A program made the translations under genes and the position numbers. The notes beneath the pieces were generated by a model that was given only the letters and a program-made list of their open reading frames with translations, was not told the DNA's origin and did no database searches. DNA of 64,000 nucleotides from Jiangella alba (GTDB lineage: Bacteria > Actinomycetota > Actinomycetes > Jiangellales > Jiangellaceae): contig NZ_FNUC01000002.1 of NCBI RefSeq assembly GCF_900106035.1, positions 1 through 64,000 of the forward strand, in the 5' to 3' direction. Of this stretch, positions 4,161 to 60,895 are shown in pieces. The first letter of the stretch is position 1. Every line of letters begins with the position of its first letter.

Positions 4161-5921
<1,761 letters not shown>

Positions 5922-54662: not shown

Positions 54663-56347
54663 GCCATCCGCACCCGGAACTCCCCTCGCCGCCGTCCCTC
54701 GACCCCGCCGCGCTGCGCGTCGTCCCGCTCGGCGGGCTCGGCGAGGTCGGCCGCAACATGACCGTGTTCGAGTACGGCGGCCGGCTGCTGATCGTCGACT
54801 GCGGCGTGCTGTTCCCCGAGGACAACCAGCCCGGCGTCGACCTCATCCTCCCCGACTTCGAGTACATCCGGGACCGCCTCGACGACGTCGAGGCGATCCT
54901 GCTGACGCACGGGCACGAGGACCACATCGGCGCCGTCCCGTTCCTGCTGCGCGAGAAGCAGGACATCCCCGTCGTCGGCTCCCGGCTGACCCTCGCGCTG
55001 ATCGAGGCGAAGCTCCGGGAGCACCGCATCGACGCCTACCAGCTGCAGGTCAAGGAGGGGCAGTCGGAGCGGTTCGGCCCGTTCGAGGTCGAGTTCCTGG
55101 CCGTCAACCACTCCATCCCCGACGCGCTGGCGCTGTCCATCCGCACCCCGGCCGGCGTCGTGCTGCACACCGGCGACTTCAAGATGGACCAGCTGCCGCT
55201 GGACGGCCGGCTCACCGACCTCAACGGGTTCGCCCGGCTCGGCGACGCCGGCGTCGACCTGTTCATGACCGACTCCACCAACGCCGAGGTGCCCGGCTTC
55301 ACACCGCACGAGCGCGACATCGCCGACGTCCTCGACGGCGTCTTCACCCGCGCGCCGCGCCGCGTCGTCGTCGCGTCCTTCGCCAGCCACGTCCACCGCG
55401 TGCAGCAGGTCCTCGACGTCGCCGTCGCGCACGGCCGCAAGGTCGCCTTCGTCGGCCGGTCCATGGTGCGCAACATGGGCATCGCCCGCGACCTCGGCTA
55501 CCTCACCGTCCCCGGCGGCACCCTCGTCGACCTCAAGTCGATCGACGACCTCCCGCCCGACAAGGTCGTGCTGATGTCGACCGGCTCGCAGGGCGAGCCG
55601 ATGGCGGCGCTGTCGCGCATCGCCAACCGCGACCACCCGGCCATCCGCATCGAGCCCGGCGACGTCGTCGTGCTGGCGTCGTCGCTGATCCCGGGCAACG
55701 AGAACGCCGTGTCCCGGGTCATCAACGGGCTCACCCGCGAGGGCGCCACCGTCGTGCACAAGGGCAACGCCAAGGTGCACACGTCCGGCCACGCCTCCGC
55801 CGGCGAGCTGCTGTTCGCGTACAACCTGGTCAAGCCGCGCAACGTCATGCCGATCCACGGCGAGACCCGGCACCTGTTCGCCAACGCCGACATCGCCGTC
55901 GCCTCCGGGGTGCCGCGCGAGCGGGTCGCGCTGGCCGAGGACGGCGTCGTCGTCGACCTCCTCGACGGCGTCGCGCGCGTCGTCGGCGCGGTGCCGTGCG
56001 GCTACGTCTACGTTGACGGCTCCAACGTCGGCGGCGTCGCCGAGGCGTCGCTGAAGGACCGCCGCATCCTCGGCGAAGAGGGCTTCATCTCCGTCGTCGT
56101 GGTCGTCGACTCCGTCACCGGGAAGGTCACCGGCGGGCCCGAGATCCACGCCCGCGGGTTCGCCGAGGACGACAGCGTCTTCGACGACATCCGGCCCGAG
56201 CTGGTGGCGGCGCTGGAGAAGGCGGCCGAGGGCGGCAACGCCGACACCTACCAGCTGCAGCAGACGGTGCGCCGCACCATCGGCCGCTGGGTCGGCGGCC
56301 GGCTGCGGCGCCGTCCGATGATCATCCCGGTGGTCGTCGAGTCGTAG
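54659..56347 (+). CDS. rnj: ribonuclease J
   Basis: A 562-residue metallo-beta-lactamase/beta-CASP nuclease with 5'-3' exo- and endonuclease activity in mRNA turnover and rRNA maturation. The zinc motif is HGHEDH (84-89); further ligands lie in HTGDFK and in the beta-CASP region (FASHVHRVQQVLD, IHGETRHL). The C-terminal domain (about 460-562) is present. The ATG overlaps dapA, a conserved neighbourhood. Its 3' end overlaps the convergent AHSA1 gene by 26 bp. Confidence 0.96.
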   Translation: MSHPHPELPSPPSLDPAALRVVPLGGLGEVGRNMTVFEYGGRLLIVDCGVLFPEDNQPGVDLILPDFEYIRDRLDDVEAILLTHGHEDHIGAVPFLLREKQDIPVVGSRLTLALIEAKLREHRIDAYQLQVKEGQSERFGPFEVEFLAVNHSIPDALALSIRTPAGVVLHTGDFKMDQLPLDGRLTDLNGFARLGDAGVDLFMTDSTNAEVPGFTPHERDIADVLDGVFTRAPRRVVVASFASHVHRVQQVLDVAVAHGRKVAFVGRSMVRNMGIARDLGYLTVPGGTLVDLKSIDDLPPDKVVLMSTGSQGEPMAALSRIANRDHPAIRIEPGDVVVLASSLIPGNENAVSRVINGLTREGATVVHKGNAKVHTSGHASAGELLFAYNLVKPRNVMPIHGETRHLFANADIAVASGVPRERVALAEDGVVVDLLDGVARVVGAVPCGYVYVDGSNVGGVAEASLKDRRILGEEGFISVVVVVDSVTGKVTGGPEIHARGFAEDDSVFDDIRPELVAALEKAAEGGNADTYQLQQTVRRTIGRWVGGRLRRRPMIIPVVVES

Positions 56348-56771
56348 CCGCCGCCTCGCCCAGCGCGGCGAGGATGCGGCGCCAGCCGTTGCCCATGATC
56401 GTGCGCGACAGCTGGTCGGCGGGGGAGCGGGGGTCGAAGCCGCGGTGGGTGAACAGCACCCGGGTGCCGCGGCCCTCCCGGCGCAGCTCGAAGCGGACCA
56501 CCCAGCCGCGCGGCCCGTCCGCCGCGGCGTCGTCCCAGCTGAAGCTGAGCAGCTCCGGCTCGACCGCCTCGAGCACCTCGCAGGCGACCGTGCCGGAGAA
56601 GCCGACCGCCTCGATCGGCTTCGCCGCCATCGTGAACCGGGCGCCGACCCGCGGCTCGAACCCGTCCGGGCGCATCAGCCAGCGGGCCAGCAGCTCCGGC
56701 GTCGTCAGGGCGCGCCAGACCAACTCCGGCGGGTGCGGGTAGAACTGGTCCAGCTCGATCTCGGTGGTCAT
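56322..56771 (-). CDS. SRPBCC/AHSA1 family protein
   Basis: A 149-residue START-like barrel protein: IELDQFYPHPPELVWRALTTPELLARWLM is the classic AHSA1 start, with SFSWDDAA and GTRVLFTHRGF later. Such proteins paired with an ArsR gene are common in actinobacteria and may bind a hydrophobic ligand. Its ATG overlaps the ArsR stop by 4 bp. Confidence 0.9.
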   Translation of the reverse strand: MTTEIELDQFYPHPPELVWRALTTPELLARWLMRPDGFEPRVGARFTMAAKPIEAVGFSGTVACEVLEAVEPELLSFSWDDAAADGPRGWVVRFELRREGRGTRVLFTHRGFDPRSPADQLSRTIMGNGWRRILAALGEAAATTRRPPG

Positions 56772-57115
56772 GGGCGGTCCTCGCCGGCGAGGTCGTCCAG
56801 CACGTCGCCGAGGTCGGTGAGCCGGGCCCGCCAGTACCGCTCGTACGGCGTCAGCCAGTCGCGGACGCCGACGAGCGGGCCCGCGTGGACGGTGTAGTAG
56901 CGGTGCCGGCCGCGCTGCTCCTCGCGCACGAGGTCGGTGTCGCGGAGCACGCGCAGGTGCTCGGAGACGCTGGGGCGGGCCATGTCGAACCGGTCGGCGA
57001 TGTCCTGGACCGTCTGCTCGCCGTCGAGCAGGAGATCGAGGATGTCGCGGCGGGTCGGGTTGGCCAGCGCACCGAACAACCGGTCCTCCGGCGACGTCTT
57101 GCCCCGTTGCGGCAT
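56768..57115 (-). CDS. ArsR family transcriptional regulator
   Basis: A 115-residue winged helix regulator: FGALANPTRRDILDLLLDGEQTVQDIADRFDMARPSVSEHLRVLRDTDLVREEQRGRHRYYTVHAGPL. It has no ELCVCDL metal box, so it is probably not a metal sensor but one of the ArsR proteins paired with AHSA1 partners. The glyoxalase gene 14 bp upstream on the same strand suggests a three-gene operon. It may bind the inverted repeat in the glyoxalase promoter. Confidence 0.9.
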   Translation of the reverse strand: MPQRGKTSPEDRLFGALANPTRRDILDLLLDGEQTVQDIADRFDMARPSVSEHLRVLRDTDLVREEQRGRHRYYTVHAGPLVGVRDWLTPYERYWRARLTDLGDVLDDLAGEDRP

Positions 57116-57129
57116 GGCCCCGTTCTACC

Positions 57130-57492
57130 TCACCCGGCGGCCGACAGGACGTAGCCGTTGCCGTCGGGGTCTGCGAACGTGGCCTGGCGGCCCCACGGCA
57201 GCTCGTTCGGCCCGTCGACGCTCACCCCGGCGGCCCGCAGCCGCTCGACGTCGGCATCGAGATCGGACGACGCCAGGATGGTGCCGGCCGACGTCCCCGC
57301 CGCTGCGCCCGGGAACGGCCGGTGCAGCACGATCGCCGTCGCCGCCCCGGGCGGGGCGACCTCCAGCCAGCGGTTGTCGCCCATGGCGAGGTCGGTGCGC
57401 ACCTCGAACCCGAGCACGTCGGCATAGAACTCCCTGGCCCGCTCCTGGTCGTCGACGAACATGGTCAGCGTCTGGATCTGCGTCAGGCTCAT
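57130..57492 (-). CDS. VOC (glyoxalase/bleomycin resistance) family protein
   Basis: A 120-residue vicinal oxygen chelate protein: IQTLTMFVDDQERAREFYADVLGFEVRTD is the first beta-alpha-beta unit and GRQATFADPDGNGYVLS the C-terminal one. Close relatives are annotated glyoxalase-like with unknown substrates. The start at ATG 57492, 6 nt after the -10 box TATGCT, gives the usual length. It heads the glyoxalase-arsR-AHSA1 operon. Confidence 0.9.
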   Translation of the reverse strand: MSLTQIQTLTMFVDDQERAREFYADVLGFEVRTDLAMGDNRWLEVAPPGAATAIVLHRPFPGAAAGTSAGTILASSDLDADVERLRAAGVSVDGPNELPWGRQATFADPDGNGYVLSAAG

Positions 57493-57498
57493 GTGGTG

Positions 57499-57528
57499 AG
57501 CATAGGTAGGAATTTTCCTACGCGTCAA
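57499..57528 (-). promoter_or_regulatory. promoter with spacer operator for the glyoxalase-arsR-AHSA1 operon
   Basis: On the minus strand TTGACG (57523-57528) and TATGCT (57499-57504) are 18 bp apart, and the -10 box ends 6 nt before the ATG. The spacer is almost entirely the inverted repeat GTAGGAA-TT-TTCCTAC (57506-57521). A dimer bound there would exclude RNA polymerase. ArsR, encoded in the operon, is the natural candidate. Confidence 0.75.
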
Positions 57529-57604
57529 CCCAACGTCCATGATCATCAACCTTTTGCGACGTCATAGCAGCCCAGAAGGTTGATGATCATGGAGCGTTGG
57601 GTTG
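57526..57604. repeat. 79-bp foldback element A
   Basis: Arms of 28 and 29 nt, CAACCCAACG-TCCATGATCATCAACCTT and the reverse complement with one extra base (57526-57553, 57576-57604), surround a 22-nt loop; the stem continues imperfectly into the loop (CTTTTG/CAGAAG). The AT-rich core TGATCATCAACC is unlike the surrounding DNA. It overlaps the -35 box of the glyoxalase promoter. It looks like a MITE or REP-type repeat, or a bidirectional hairpin. Confidence 0.75.
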
Positions 57605-57674
57605 GGGAACGGTGGACGGTAGGACGGCAGGGGTGGCGGACGGTGTGCCAGCGCGGGCTGTGCCCGGTTCTTCC

Positions 57675-57807
57675 CCGTCCCCCTGATAGCTGCCCGTTCT
57701 TAGGCCGCGGTGCCGCGGGTCAAGCGGTGCTTCGCTCGCGCGAAGCGCCGTTCGGCTCCGCTTGAGGCGCGGTGCCACGGCTAAGAGAATGGGCAGCAGG
57801 GGGACGG
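57675..57807. repeat. 133-bp foldback element B with nested arms
   Basis: The ends are perfect 11-bp inverted repeats, CCGTCCCCCTG (57675-57685) and CAGGGGGACGG (57797-57807). Inside are further matching arms: CTGCCC...TTAGGCCG with CGGCTAAG...GGGCAG, TCAAGCGG (57720-57727) with CCGCTTGA (57758-57765), and a central GCTTCGC-TCGC-GCGAAGC (57729-57746). Most of the element can fold into one long interrupted hairpin. No transposase gene is present. Confidence 0.72.
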
Positions 57808-57972
57808 CGAACTGGAGCAAGGTGGCGCACCGTGGCACCACGGCGCACCGCACAGCGGCGAGCCGCGGCGCAGTGGCGCACTCGGCAAGCGTGCCAACGG
57901 GGCCGGCGCATCCAGCAGGCGAGCTGGCCAGCCGGCCGGTCAAGCGGCCCGGCAGTCGGTCGGCCGTCGACC

Positions 57973-58172
57973 AGGGGCCGAGCTGACCAGCCAGCCAGTC
58001 CGCCGGTCAGCAGTCGGCCAGGAGCCGAGCTGACCAGCCAGCCAGTCCGCCGGCCAGCAGTCGGCCCTGCGGTTGGCGGACTGGTCGGCAGAATGCGAGG
58101 TGGCCAGCCAGTCAGACGGTCGGTCGGTCGGCCGGTTGACCAGGAGCCGAGCTGACCAGCCAGCCAGTCGAC
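57973..58172. repeat. 47-bp tandem repeats upstream of ftsK
   Basis: AGGAGCCGAGCTGACCAGCC begins each unit: copies at 57973-58019 and 58020-58066, and a partial third at 58142-58172. The surrounding 300 bp are built of the same CCAGCCAGTC/GGTCGGCC words, so decayed copies probably extend to about 58240. No gene is supported in this stretch. Confidence 0.75.
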
Positions 58173-58350
58173 CAGCCGGCGAGCCAGCCAACCAGCCGGC
58201 CGGCCAGGCGGTCGGCCGATCGGTCAGCGGGTCGACCTGTGCACAGTGCGCCGTCGCGAACGTTCCTCGATCCCCACCCCACCTGCAACAACGGACATTT
58301 CACCCGACGCGCCGGGGCTCGTGTGACTGAAGATGCGCCTGTGTCGGATG

Positions 58351-58356
58351 TAGTGT
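58351..58356 (+). promoter_or_regulatory. -10 box of a predicted leaderless promoter (ftsK)
   Basis: TAGTGT ends 7 nt before ATG 58364; the intervening GATCTCC is not a ribosome-binding site. Confidence 0.5.
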
Positions 58357-58363
58357 GATCTCC

Positions 58364-60895
58364 ATGGCGACCCGAACAGCCACGGCACGGTCGCGAAGCT
58401 CGTCGGGTACCCCCAAGCGGCGTACCCCGGCTCGCGGCCGGAAGCGTCGCGCACCTGAGCCGCCCCCACCGCCGCCACCTCCGGAGCCGAGTCTCGCCGC
58501 GCAGTTCTTCGGCGGCATCGGCCGGATGTTCGTCGGCATCTGGATGGGCATCGCACACGTCGTCGGCGGCGTGGCCCGCAGTGTGGGACGGACGGCGACG
58601 AGCCTCGAGGCCGACCAGCGGCGCGACGGCGTCGGGCTGTTCCTCATCGGGACGGCGTTCATCGTCGCCGCGTCGGTGTGGTGGACGCTGGACGGCAAGA
58701 TCTACGAGGCCGTGTACCAGGGCATCGCGGGCGCCATCGGCACGGGCGCGTACGTCGCGCCGGTGCTGCTGGCCATGGCGGCCTGGCGCACGCTGCGCCA
58801 CCCCGACCGCAACGGCCCGGGCGGCCGCCAGGTCATCGGCTGGGTGTGTCTCGCGCTGGGCACGCTCGGCCTCGCGCACATCGCCGGCGGCATGCCGCGC
58901 CCGGTCGACGGGCAGGTGGCGATGGAGCGGGCCGGCGGCGCCATCGGCTACGTCTCCTCGACCATCCTGGCCGACCTGCTGACGGTGTACGTGGCGGGCC
59001 CGCTGCTGGGCCTGCTGACGCTGTTCGGCGTGCTGGTCATCACCGGCATCCCGCTGTACGAGGTGACGGCGCAGCTGCGGGCCGCCGCGCTGGTCGTGGG
59101 CGGCTGGCTGGGCTTCCGGCCCCCGGTCGCCGACGGCGAGGAGGCCGACGCCCGGGGGCGGCGCCTCGCGCCCAGCGACGACGAGCCGTACGACTCGCCG
59201 GTGCTGCGCGAGAAGCCGAAGCGCCGGCGCAAGGCCGAACCCGAGCCCGACGCCGACGACGACACCGCCGAGCTGGCCGGTCTCGGCGCCGAGGACGACA
59301 CCCCGACGGAGCCGGCGGTCGTCGACCGCGAGCTGCGCAAGCGGAAGAAGAAGGGCGCCGACGAGCCGGCCGAGCCGCCGCCGCACACCCCGATCCCGCA
59401 GCGGGTCGAGCAGCTGGCGCTGTCCGGCGACATCACGTACACGCTGCCCAACAGCGACCTCCTGCGCCAGGGCAGCCCGCACAAGGCCAAGTCGGCCGCG
59501 TCCGACCAGGTCGTCGACTCCCTGATGGGCGTGTTCGACCAGTTCAACATCGACGCCGTCGTCACCGGCTACACCCGCGGCCCGACGGTGACGCGGTACG
59601 AGGTCGAGCTGGGCACGGCGGTGAAGGTCGAGCGCGTCACGGCGCTGTCGAAGAACATCGCCTACGCGGTCGCCTCCGCCGACGTCCGCATCCTGTCGCC
59701 GATCCCGGGCAAGTCGGCCATCGGCATCGAGATCCCCAACACCGACAAGGAGATCGTCAGCCTCGGCGACGTCATGCGCTCGCCGGTGGCCCGCAAGGAC
59801 CACCACCCGATGATCGCCGGCCTGGGCAAGGACGTCGAGGGCGGCTTCGTCGTCACGAACCTGGCGAAGATGCCGCACCTGCTGGTGGCGGGCGCCACCG
59901 GCTCCGGTAAGTCGAGCTTCATCAACTCGATGATCACGTCGATCCTGATGCGCGCGACGCCAGACGAGGTGCGGCTGATCATGGTCGACCCCAAGCGGGT
60001 GGAGCTGTCGGCGTACGAGGGCATCCCGCACCTGATCACGCCGATCATCACCAGCCCGAAGAAGGCGGCCGAGGCGCTGCAGTGGGTCGTGCGCGAGATG
60101 GACATGCGCTACGACGACCTCGCCAACTTCGGCTTCCGGCACGTCGACGACTTCAACAAGGCGGTCCGCGCGGGCAAGGTGAAGGCGCCCGAGGGCAGCG
60201 AGCGGGTGCTGACGCCGTACCCGTACCTGCTGGTCATCGTCGACGAGCTGGCCGACCTCATGATGGTCGCCCCGCGCGACGTCGAGGACTCCGTCGTCCG
60301 CATCACGCAGCTGGCCCGGGCGGCCGGCATCCACCTGGTGCTGGCGACGCAGCGGCCGTCGGTCGACGTCGTCACGGGTCTCATCAAGGCGAACGTGCCG
60401 TCGCGGCTGGCGTTCGCGACGTCGTCGCTGGCCGACTCCCGCGTCATCCTCGACCAGCCGGGCGCCGAGAAGCTGGTCGGCCAGGGTGACGGCCTGTTCC
60501 TGCCGATGGGCGCGAGCAAGCCCATCCGCGTCCAGGGCGCCTGGGTCACCGAGACCGAGATCGCGTCGGTCGTCGGCCACTGCAAGGAGCAGCTGGAGCC
60601 GAGCTACCGCGAGGACGTCACGGCGCCGCAGGCGGCCAAGCGTGAGGTCGACGAGGACATCGGCGACGACCTCGACCTGCTCTGCCAGGCCGCCGAGCTG
60701 GTCGTCAACACGCAGTTCGGCTCGACGTCGATGCTGCAGCGCAAGCTCCGAGTCGGGTTCGCGAAGGCCGGCCGGCTGATGGACCTGATGGAGAGCCGCG
60801 GCATCGTCGGCCCGTCCGAGGGGTCGAAGGCGCGCGACGTGCTGATCAAGCCCGACGACCTCGACGAGGTGCTGGACGCCCTGCGCGGTGACTGA
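58364..60895 (+). CDS. ftsK: DNA translocase FtsK
   Basis: An 843-residue hexameric DNA pump for chromosome segregation at the septum. The N-terminal part has a basic/Pro-rich segment and about four or five membrane helices (about residues 80-250), then an acidic linker (about 265-350). The motor domain has Walker A GATGSGKSS (near 510) and Walker B VIVDELADLMM (near 625), followed by the DNA-reading gamma winged helix (about 760-843, LRVGFAKAGRLMDLMESRGIVGPSEGSKARDVL). ATG 58364 is chosen by the promoter; GTG 58355 would add 3 residues. It overlaps the next gene by 8 bp. Confidence 0.95.
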   Translation: MATRTATARSRSSSGTPKRRTPARGRKRRAPEPPPPPPPPEPSLAAQFFGGIGRMFVGIWMGIAHVVGGVARSVGRTATSLEADQRRDGVGLFLIGTAFIVAASVWWTLDGKIYEAVYQGIAGAIGTGAYVAPVLLAMAAWRTLRHPDRNGPGGRQVIGWVCLALGTLGLAHIAGGMPRPVDGQVAMERAGGAIGYVSSTILADLLTVYVAGPLLGLLTLFGVLVITGIPLYEVTAQLRAAALVVGGWLGFRPPVADGEEADARGRRLAPSDDEPYDSPVLREKPKRRRKAEPEPDADDDTAELAGLGAEDDTPTEPAVVDRELRKRKKKGADEPAEPPPHTPIPQRVEQLALSGDITYTLPNSDLLRQGSPHKAKSAASDQVVDSLMGVFDQFNIDAVVTGYTRGPTVTRYEVELGTAVKVERVTALSKNIAYAVASADVRILSPIPGKSAIGIEIPNTDKEIVSLGDVMRSPVARKDHHPMIAGLGKDVEGGFVVTNLAKMPHLLVAGATGSGKSSFINSMITSILMRATPDEVRLIMVDPKRVELSAYEGIPHLITPIITSPKKAAEALQWVVREMDMRYDDLANFGFRHVDDFNKAVRAGKVKAPEGSERVLTPYPYLLVIVDELADLMMVAPRDVEDSVVRITQLARAAGIHLVLATQRPSVDVVTGLIKANVPSRLAFATSSLADSRVILDQPGAEKLVGQGDGLFLPMGASKPIRVQGAWVTETEIASVVGHCKEQLEPSYREDVTAPQAAKREVDEDIGDDLDLLCQAAELVVNTQFGSTSMLQRKLRVGFAKAGRLMDLMESRGIVGPSEGSKARDVLIKPDDLDEVLDALRGD

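Follow-up and report, generated by a model that had tools for sequence, protein, structure and literature searches.

A solo hairpin upstream of ftsK in Jiangella alba is probably related to palindromes that flank chromosomal AbiEi-DUF559-like genes

The gap between a glyoxalase/ArsR/AHSA1 operon and ftsK in Jiangella alba contains two foldback elements, here called A and B, and a short tandem array, and the question is what these repeats are and how they could have come to lie there. The origin and spread of REP-like palindromes is an old question, which to our knowledge has so far been tied to one enzyme type. The gap is part of a stretch of 64,000 nucleotides that was analysed as a whole (the window), from an assembly (G000) of 7.68 Mb in 4 contigs. 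The three kinds of repeat, reported in an earlier note on the window, are all real (Table 1). The gap is also free of genes, as had been stated, but it is longer than the ca 750 bp given and extends from 57493 to 58354 if the glyoxalase gene starts at the ATG at 57492. According to the sequence and Pfam, it is bounded by the minus-strand operon and the plus-strand ftsK, the product of which is 94% identical to FtsK of J. rhizosphaerae and J. endophytica. The short palindrome upstream of the ArsR operon is unchanged or slightly altered in six relatives (G004, G007, G008, G009, G010 and G011), and it is a possible operator of the ArsR-family regulator. A known Rfam RNA family for the gap was rejected, since the covariance models gave 11 weak matches to 56800-58800 and none at the gathering score.

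Table 1. Features of the gap upstream of ftsK and of its surroundings (positions in the window).
Feature	Position	Strand	Basis or remark
AHSA1/SRPBCC-type protein	56322..56771	-	PF08327
ArsR-family regulator	56768..57115	-	PF01022
Glyoxalase-family gene, first of the flanking operon	57130..57492	-	PF00903
Palindrome GTAGGAATTTTCCTAC upstream of the ArsR operon	57506..57521	.	Read from sequence
Element A palindrome, core TCCATGATCATCAACCTTTTG / CAGAAGGTTGATGATCATGGA, loop CGACGTCATAGCAGCC	57526..57604	.	Probable solo copy of the AbiEi-DUF559-associated hairpin family
Block with B and tandem array, missing in relative G008	57594..58277	.	Comparison with relatives
Element B, nested hairpin, 133 bp, second dispersed family of the genus	57675..57807	+	Repeat search, alignment
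47-bp tandem repeat	57957..58066	.	2.3 copies, 92% matches
ftsK	58355..60895	+	PF01580; FtsK alpha, gamma and 4TM domains

We begin with element A. It is 79 bp long, with arms at ca 57526-57557 and 57573-57605, and its inner 21-nt arms are 95% complementary. Its GC content is 0.51, compared to 0.73 for the window, which bears out the deviating composition noticed earlier. It lies ca 34 bp upstream of the glyoxalase start codon and hence, as had been proposed, in the position of the opposite operon's promoter.

The element is not alone. The region was matched in 12 of the 12 Jiangella genomes searched, the own one included, with best matches at E 1e-24 or better in ten of them and weak ones alone in G003 and G006. 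In 61 stretches of the own genome (673 kb), consisting of the window and others picked for matching A or B, we count at least 39 non-overlapping places with an A hairpin, a lower bound since 40 of 43 first-look candidates were scored. Both flanks are common to 9 of 27 relative loci and a fetched own-genome locus, which means that some of these repeats have been inherited in place.

All 39 places are intergenic according to a home-made gene caller that overlooks some genes, some AbiEi-DUF559 genes among them. With these crude gene calls, 36 of the 39 copies are in tandem or convergent gaps and 3 in divergent ones, the copy in the window being situated in a divergent promoter region. Copies between convergent genes number 14 of 39, and this could be taken to mean that the palindromes are kept as terminators, mRNA-stabilising hairpins or some other RNA or DNA structure and are immobile, a reading with which the conserved pairing of element B (see below) would also agree. 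However, 53 of 222 background gaps longer than 60 bp are convergent too, so the enrichment is modest, and neither the locus-specific hairpin pairs around one gene family nor the empty sites described below would be explained. We consider this possibility to be very improbable.

What, then, is the family associated with? Some of the A copies are paired ca 1.07 kb apart, with a single gene in between. In the own genome, a gene is found between matching hairpins at three loci, L061, L068 and L092, and at each of them the two hairpins are alike, while the arms differ between loci. Among the own gene-side hairpins compared, the best match to the window copy of A (query of 58 nt) is the right-hand hairpin of L061. 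The scores are 46 and 38 for the two hairpins of L061, 37 and 30 for L068, 24 and 17 for L092, and 5-13 for six other classes. The gene codes for an AbiEi antitoxin-like protein, and its presence between two A-type hairpins is a new observation. The family is located outside the window on which the earlier note was based.

The partner protein has a length of ca 330 amino acids. Over its N-terminal and central region it is matched by AbiEi profiles, namely the one PADLOC profile in 24 of 24 aligned members, Pfam AbiEi_4 in 17 and AbiEi_1 in 4 of them. In the C-terminal part, DUF559 is matched at E 0.01 in 2 of 24 members and REase_MTES_1575 in 1 of 24. PDB profiles give weak matches (E 0.006-0.01) to the endonuclease-like 3hrl in the C-terminal part and to the abortive-infection proteins 6y8q and 9hlo in the N-terminal part. 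In the alignment E198, D229, E240 and H247, among others, are invariant. The weak profile matches and these invariant acidic and histidine residues tentatively suggest a DNA-binding AbiEi-like N-terminal part and a DUF559-like endonuclease domain, possibly of the PD-(D/E)XK fold, at the C-terminus, for which the structure model calculated from three sequences was poor (pLDDT 50).

Five close homologs in the own genome are intact, a further copy is broken, and five distant homologs are matched in part. Of the distant ones, L233 is flanked by two nearly identical hairpins, the sequence of which is unrelated, L234-L236 are close to other hairpins, and L232 has no strong hairpin. The six neighbours of the three own-genome units are LacI-type, ABC permease, luciferase-like, methionyl-tRNA synthetase, UbiA and hydroxyisobutyrate-dehydrogenase-like genes. 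A cognate AbiEii nucleotidyltransferase or toxin gene is absent among them, and the units are therefore not AbiE pairs. Carriage by plasmids or phages was also considered and rejected. One query gave no match in 72,556 plasmid records at E 1e-10, and scans of viral contigs with two query proteins gave no relative. Two unannotated faecal phage records do match, at 31-36% identity. The stretch from one of these has no hairpin scoring 11, and the other has four hairpins, all of them upstream and with no matching pair.

We now turn to the homologs in other genomes, which are found in 76 of 148 Actinomycetes genomes at E 1e-10. We compiled 99 loci (10 own ones, 29 fetched by homolog search and 60 by place), a non-random set of mostly long, high-scoring homolog matches in which related loci are non-independent and one locus, L372, comes from another search. 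With a strong hairpin defined as one scoring at least 14 within 300 bp, 50 loci have one upstream, 51 downstream, 36 on both sides, 65 on either side and 34 on neither, the last including 5 of 33 close Jiangella homologs. The first-pass count was 49 upstream, 50 downstream and 35 on both sides. In the ftsK controls, that is, the 66 of 78 loci that are longer than 14 kb, the corresponding numbers are 3 upstream, 1 downstream, 0 on both sides and 4 on either side (Fisher p of 6e-10 for both sides and 1e-15 for either side). When the close Jiangella homologs are excluded, strong hairpins remain on both sides in 16 of 66 loci and on either side in 37 of 66, a set that still contains the distant Jiangella homologs. 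Hairpins of this strength occur in 8 of 396 windows of 320 bp drawn at random from the ftsK control loci and in none of 990 dinucleotide-shuffled flanks. Together with the many recurrences of A and B in the genome, this shows that they are not due to chance.

At loci with two strong hairpins, the 5′ hairpin is located at a median of 75 bp before the profile start and the 3′ one at a median distance of 2 bp (range -11 to 222) from the profile end. The former position raises the option that the hairpins are operators, with the AbiEi-like protein acting as an autoregulator and wider regulator and the copies elsewhere forming its regulon. AbiEi and Rv2827c, both antitoxins, bind 23-bp inverted repeats in their own promoters and autoregulate through them (PMC7319586, in part), and such kin could account for the 5′ hairpin. 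The window copy in its divergent promoter region would fit as well. Operators do not, however, explain the 3′ hairpin or the solo copies, most of which lie in the tandem or convergent gaps mentioned above, and an operator needs neither long near-perfect stems, nor presence and absence between species, nor a fused nuclease-like domain. We therefore judge this option to be rather unlikely.

The two hairpins of a locus also match each other in most cases. For 20 loci other than the close Jiangella homologs, in which both hairpins score at least 12, the own-pair match scores are 4-22, and in 19 of the 20 the score exceeds the 95th percentile of the cross-locus scores, which is 7, while in 14 it exceeds their maximum of 11 (mean 4.7, 380 pairs). 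Moreover, hairpin similarity follows protein similarity. For the 59 of 99 loci with a hairpin score of at least 13 and a protein retained in the alignment of 90, the Mantel r is 0.74. It is 0.36 without the close Jiangella homologs (34 loci) and 0.47 within them, in each case with 0 of 2000 permutations reaching the value. Below 50% protein identity, just 4 of 1312 hairpin pairs score 10 or more. Both the pair-match and the Mantel tests are based on the first-pass hairpins, for which some gene anchors are misplaced (e.g. L372). The earlier expectation that similar hairpins occur in other actinobacteria is thus correct in kind, since homologous genes often have their own hairpins, but many of these are of different sequence. 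Three distant homologs are found near ftsK in Phytoactinopolyspora loci that had been selected for their ftsK gene alone. Two of them, L197 and L120, have matching hairpin pairs, and the third, L121, has no hairpin of its kind.

These results bear on another scenario, in which an unrelated transposase moves the hairpins as miniature elements and the AbiEi-DUF559 gene is carried along as a passenger between two of them. This would account for the solo copies and the composite repeats that lack the gene (see below). Against it, many lineages of the class have this same gene family enclosed by matching hairpins, with the parallel divergence just described, and a search for the Y1 HuH transposase family (PF01797), the one family searched for, gave no match in the own genome, the control giving matches in 5 of 14 genomes. 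RAYT/Y1 transposases were for this reason rejected as the own-genome partner, and we find the passenger scenario quite improbable.

Next, 12 genomes were searched with a query made of 18 joined gene-side hairpins, the places being counted by eye for matches down to ca E 7e-9 and with the gene-side copies included. Among the matches listed, each genome matched its own hairpin class or classes alone. The number of distinct places is at least 21 in the own genome, 19 in G103, 16 in G143, 11 in G088, 10 in G132, 8 in G079, 6 in G090, 3 each in G063 and G124, 2 in G024 and 1 in G139. It is 1 in G051, in which no solo copy was found, because the two matches obtained there represent the two strands of a single hairpin, the one beside the gene. 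The hairpin loops at many loci often hold GTCATAGC or GCTATCA-like motifs, even when the arms differ between lineages (uncounted).

The occupancy of orthologous sites differs between relatives. G009 has the L068 gene unit, which lies next to metG, and so does G005, there with an internal gap. The site is empty in G010 and G002, where 21 bp separate the flank blocks, it holds 574 bp of other sequence in G004, and the flanks are 1.6-2.4 kb apart in G001, G006 and G011. In G007 (C1:989918-991043), G008 (C19:77823-78880) and G003 (C96:16881-18010), the unit is inverted compared to the own genome, G009 and G005, both flanks being seen for G007 and G003. In these three the gene part is on the opposite strand to the flank, and both orientations of the unit are hence found at this locus. 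At L061, other, mutually similar sequence lies beside the left flank in G010, G005 and G009, and an A-type hairpin is found at the right flank in G003, G004 and G005.

Solo hairpins vary likewise. L058 is missing at the orthologous site in G009 and apparently also in G008. L059 is missing in G010 and G005, with other sequence in G008 and a hairpin of another class in G001. L062 is missing in G010, G005, G001, G004 and G002, again with other sequence in G008, and L063 is missing in G010. Target-site duplications, which the earlier note had suggested looking for, were not seen in the five comparisons of filled and empty sites, no fixed target was seen at these sites, and the filled sites have ca 10-25 bp more of unmatched sequence beside the hairpins. 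Insertion and deletion are for these reasons not fully separable. With no duplication seen, the sites are unlike those of an insertion sequence or MITE.

The ftsK site itself is just as variable. In G008, hairpin A is present and fused directly to ftsK-proximal sequence, the block in between being missing (Table 1). In G004, A, B and the array are all lacking, and a short palindrome, GGAAATGATCATTTCC, is found instead. In G009, copies of B are present and spread over two contigs, the ftsK contig having the same reading as J. rhizosphaerae L118 over the compared part. For G007, G010 and G011, the homology ends at 57530-57532, just within the foot of A, with different sequence beyond, and in J. 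endophytica (L119) another gene is located upstream of ftsK. It follows from these differences that element A and the B block have been gained or lost separately.

Taken as a whole, the earlier proposal of dispersed repeats of REP or MITE character holds, given the many copies in the own genome and genus, the compensatory changes in B and the empty sites in relatives. Element A is probably a lone member of a palindrome family associated with the chromosomal AbiEi-DUF559 genes. The system would resemble REP/RAYT but would have arisen independently, around a different enzyme. From the sequence comparisons we infer that the partner protein mobilises the hairpins. The AbiEi part would recognise the hairpin arms, the nuclease part would cut the hairpin at that point, and during repair or replication the cut hairpin would be copied to new intergenic sites or inverted. 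On a wider reading our opinion is evenly balanced: a second, independently evolved REP-like class might exist, in which chromosomal AbiEi-DUF559 nucleases throughout Actinomycetes copy their own hairpins and preserve them, every enzyme co-evolving with a hairpin private to it and the unit being invertible between hairpins.

The likeness to REPtrons and REPINs (PMC3733652, PMC8266576 and PMC3116915, each in part) consists of an enzyme gene flanked by two palindromes, solo copies of the cognate palindrome scattered over intergenic regions, several distinct genes per genome each with its own palindrome class, and the lack of a plasmid match for the one query used here. According to the relevant part of PMC3116915, each RAYT is likewise distinctive and single-copy. 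The differences are the AbiEi and DUF559-like protein in place of the Y1/HuH transposase, and the flanks of the hairpins, since by eye the six-base flanks of the 39 A hairpins share no common GTAG (or CGTC) foot. The system would work like a REPtron, but it is not a member of that group. TIRtrons and CGTC REPs offer inverted repeats beside a mobility-type gene, but TIRtrons encode tyrosine transposases, and CGTC REPs are described as having no dedicated transposase (PMC3733652, in part), the main text of which contains no occurrence of actinobacteria, Streptomyces or DUF. With type IV AbiE toxin-antitoxin systems the family shares the AbiEi domain and antitoxin kin that bind inverted repeats (PMC7319586, in part), and it differs from them by the additional nuclease-like C-terminus and by the hairpins that are also 3′ of the gene and dispersed. 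Among the titles and abstracts listed from the open-licence PMC literature, there was no report linking DUF559 or AbiEi to dispersed palindromes.

If the proposal is correct, an abortive-infection antitoxin scaffold has been turned into a mobile-DNA or genome-structuring enzyme, and the system may account for part of the intergenic palindromes in high-GC genomes. A common actinobacterial protein would gain a candidate substrate, its own flanking hairpin, and as this can often be read from the genome, many natural enzyme-hairpin pairs become available for direct tests of binding, cutting and dispersal.

Apart from A, the gap holds element B and the tandem repeats, which are separate from it. 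The structure proposed for B is found in the sequence, with perfect 11-bp ends, CCGTCCCCCTG, at 57675-57685 and 57797-57807 and nested inner arms. In the own-genome stretches it occurs at no fewer than 40 places, a lower bound as 40 of 96 first-look candidates were scored. In the alignment of 51 of 52 copies, from which one overlapping row was removed, 1479 of 1525 cells (97%) are paired, and 11 of 30 pairs show compensatory changes in at least two sequences (relatedness uncorrected). The arm covariation called for earlier is therefore present, and it argues that the stem is kept by compensatory changes. No partner gene for B was found. Its copies often form inverted pairs, minus then plus, ca 50-600 bp apart (L096, L099, L200, L204, L209, L211 and L220), with no evident gene within them, and this spacing is too tight for a gene of AbiEi-DUF559 size.

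The 47-bp tandem repeat noted earlier is real but short, and it is followed by related, degenerate GC-rich repeats that reach ca 58238. Compared to the rest of the own genome, the array part gives weak matches alone (E above 1). At L112 (4325-4904), ca nine tandem copies of a 62-bp unit adjoin a B core, an analogue of the array in the window. A composite repeat of ca 0.6-0.8 kb is found at L064, L066, L083, L086, L113-L115 and other loci (at about 4500-5500 of each). The order of its parts is constant: a variant B hairpin, GC-rich short repeats, a variant A hairpin with TGATCATCCACC or CCAGG arms, and a part C (TAGGTCGACCCCTCCCGGCCCGGGTGGGGCCCACCCTACGGGCGGGCACCGACAACGTCG). At L113, to the right of A, a transposase-like reading frame, possibly of the IS481 type, starts beside the composite repeat.
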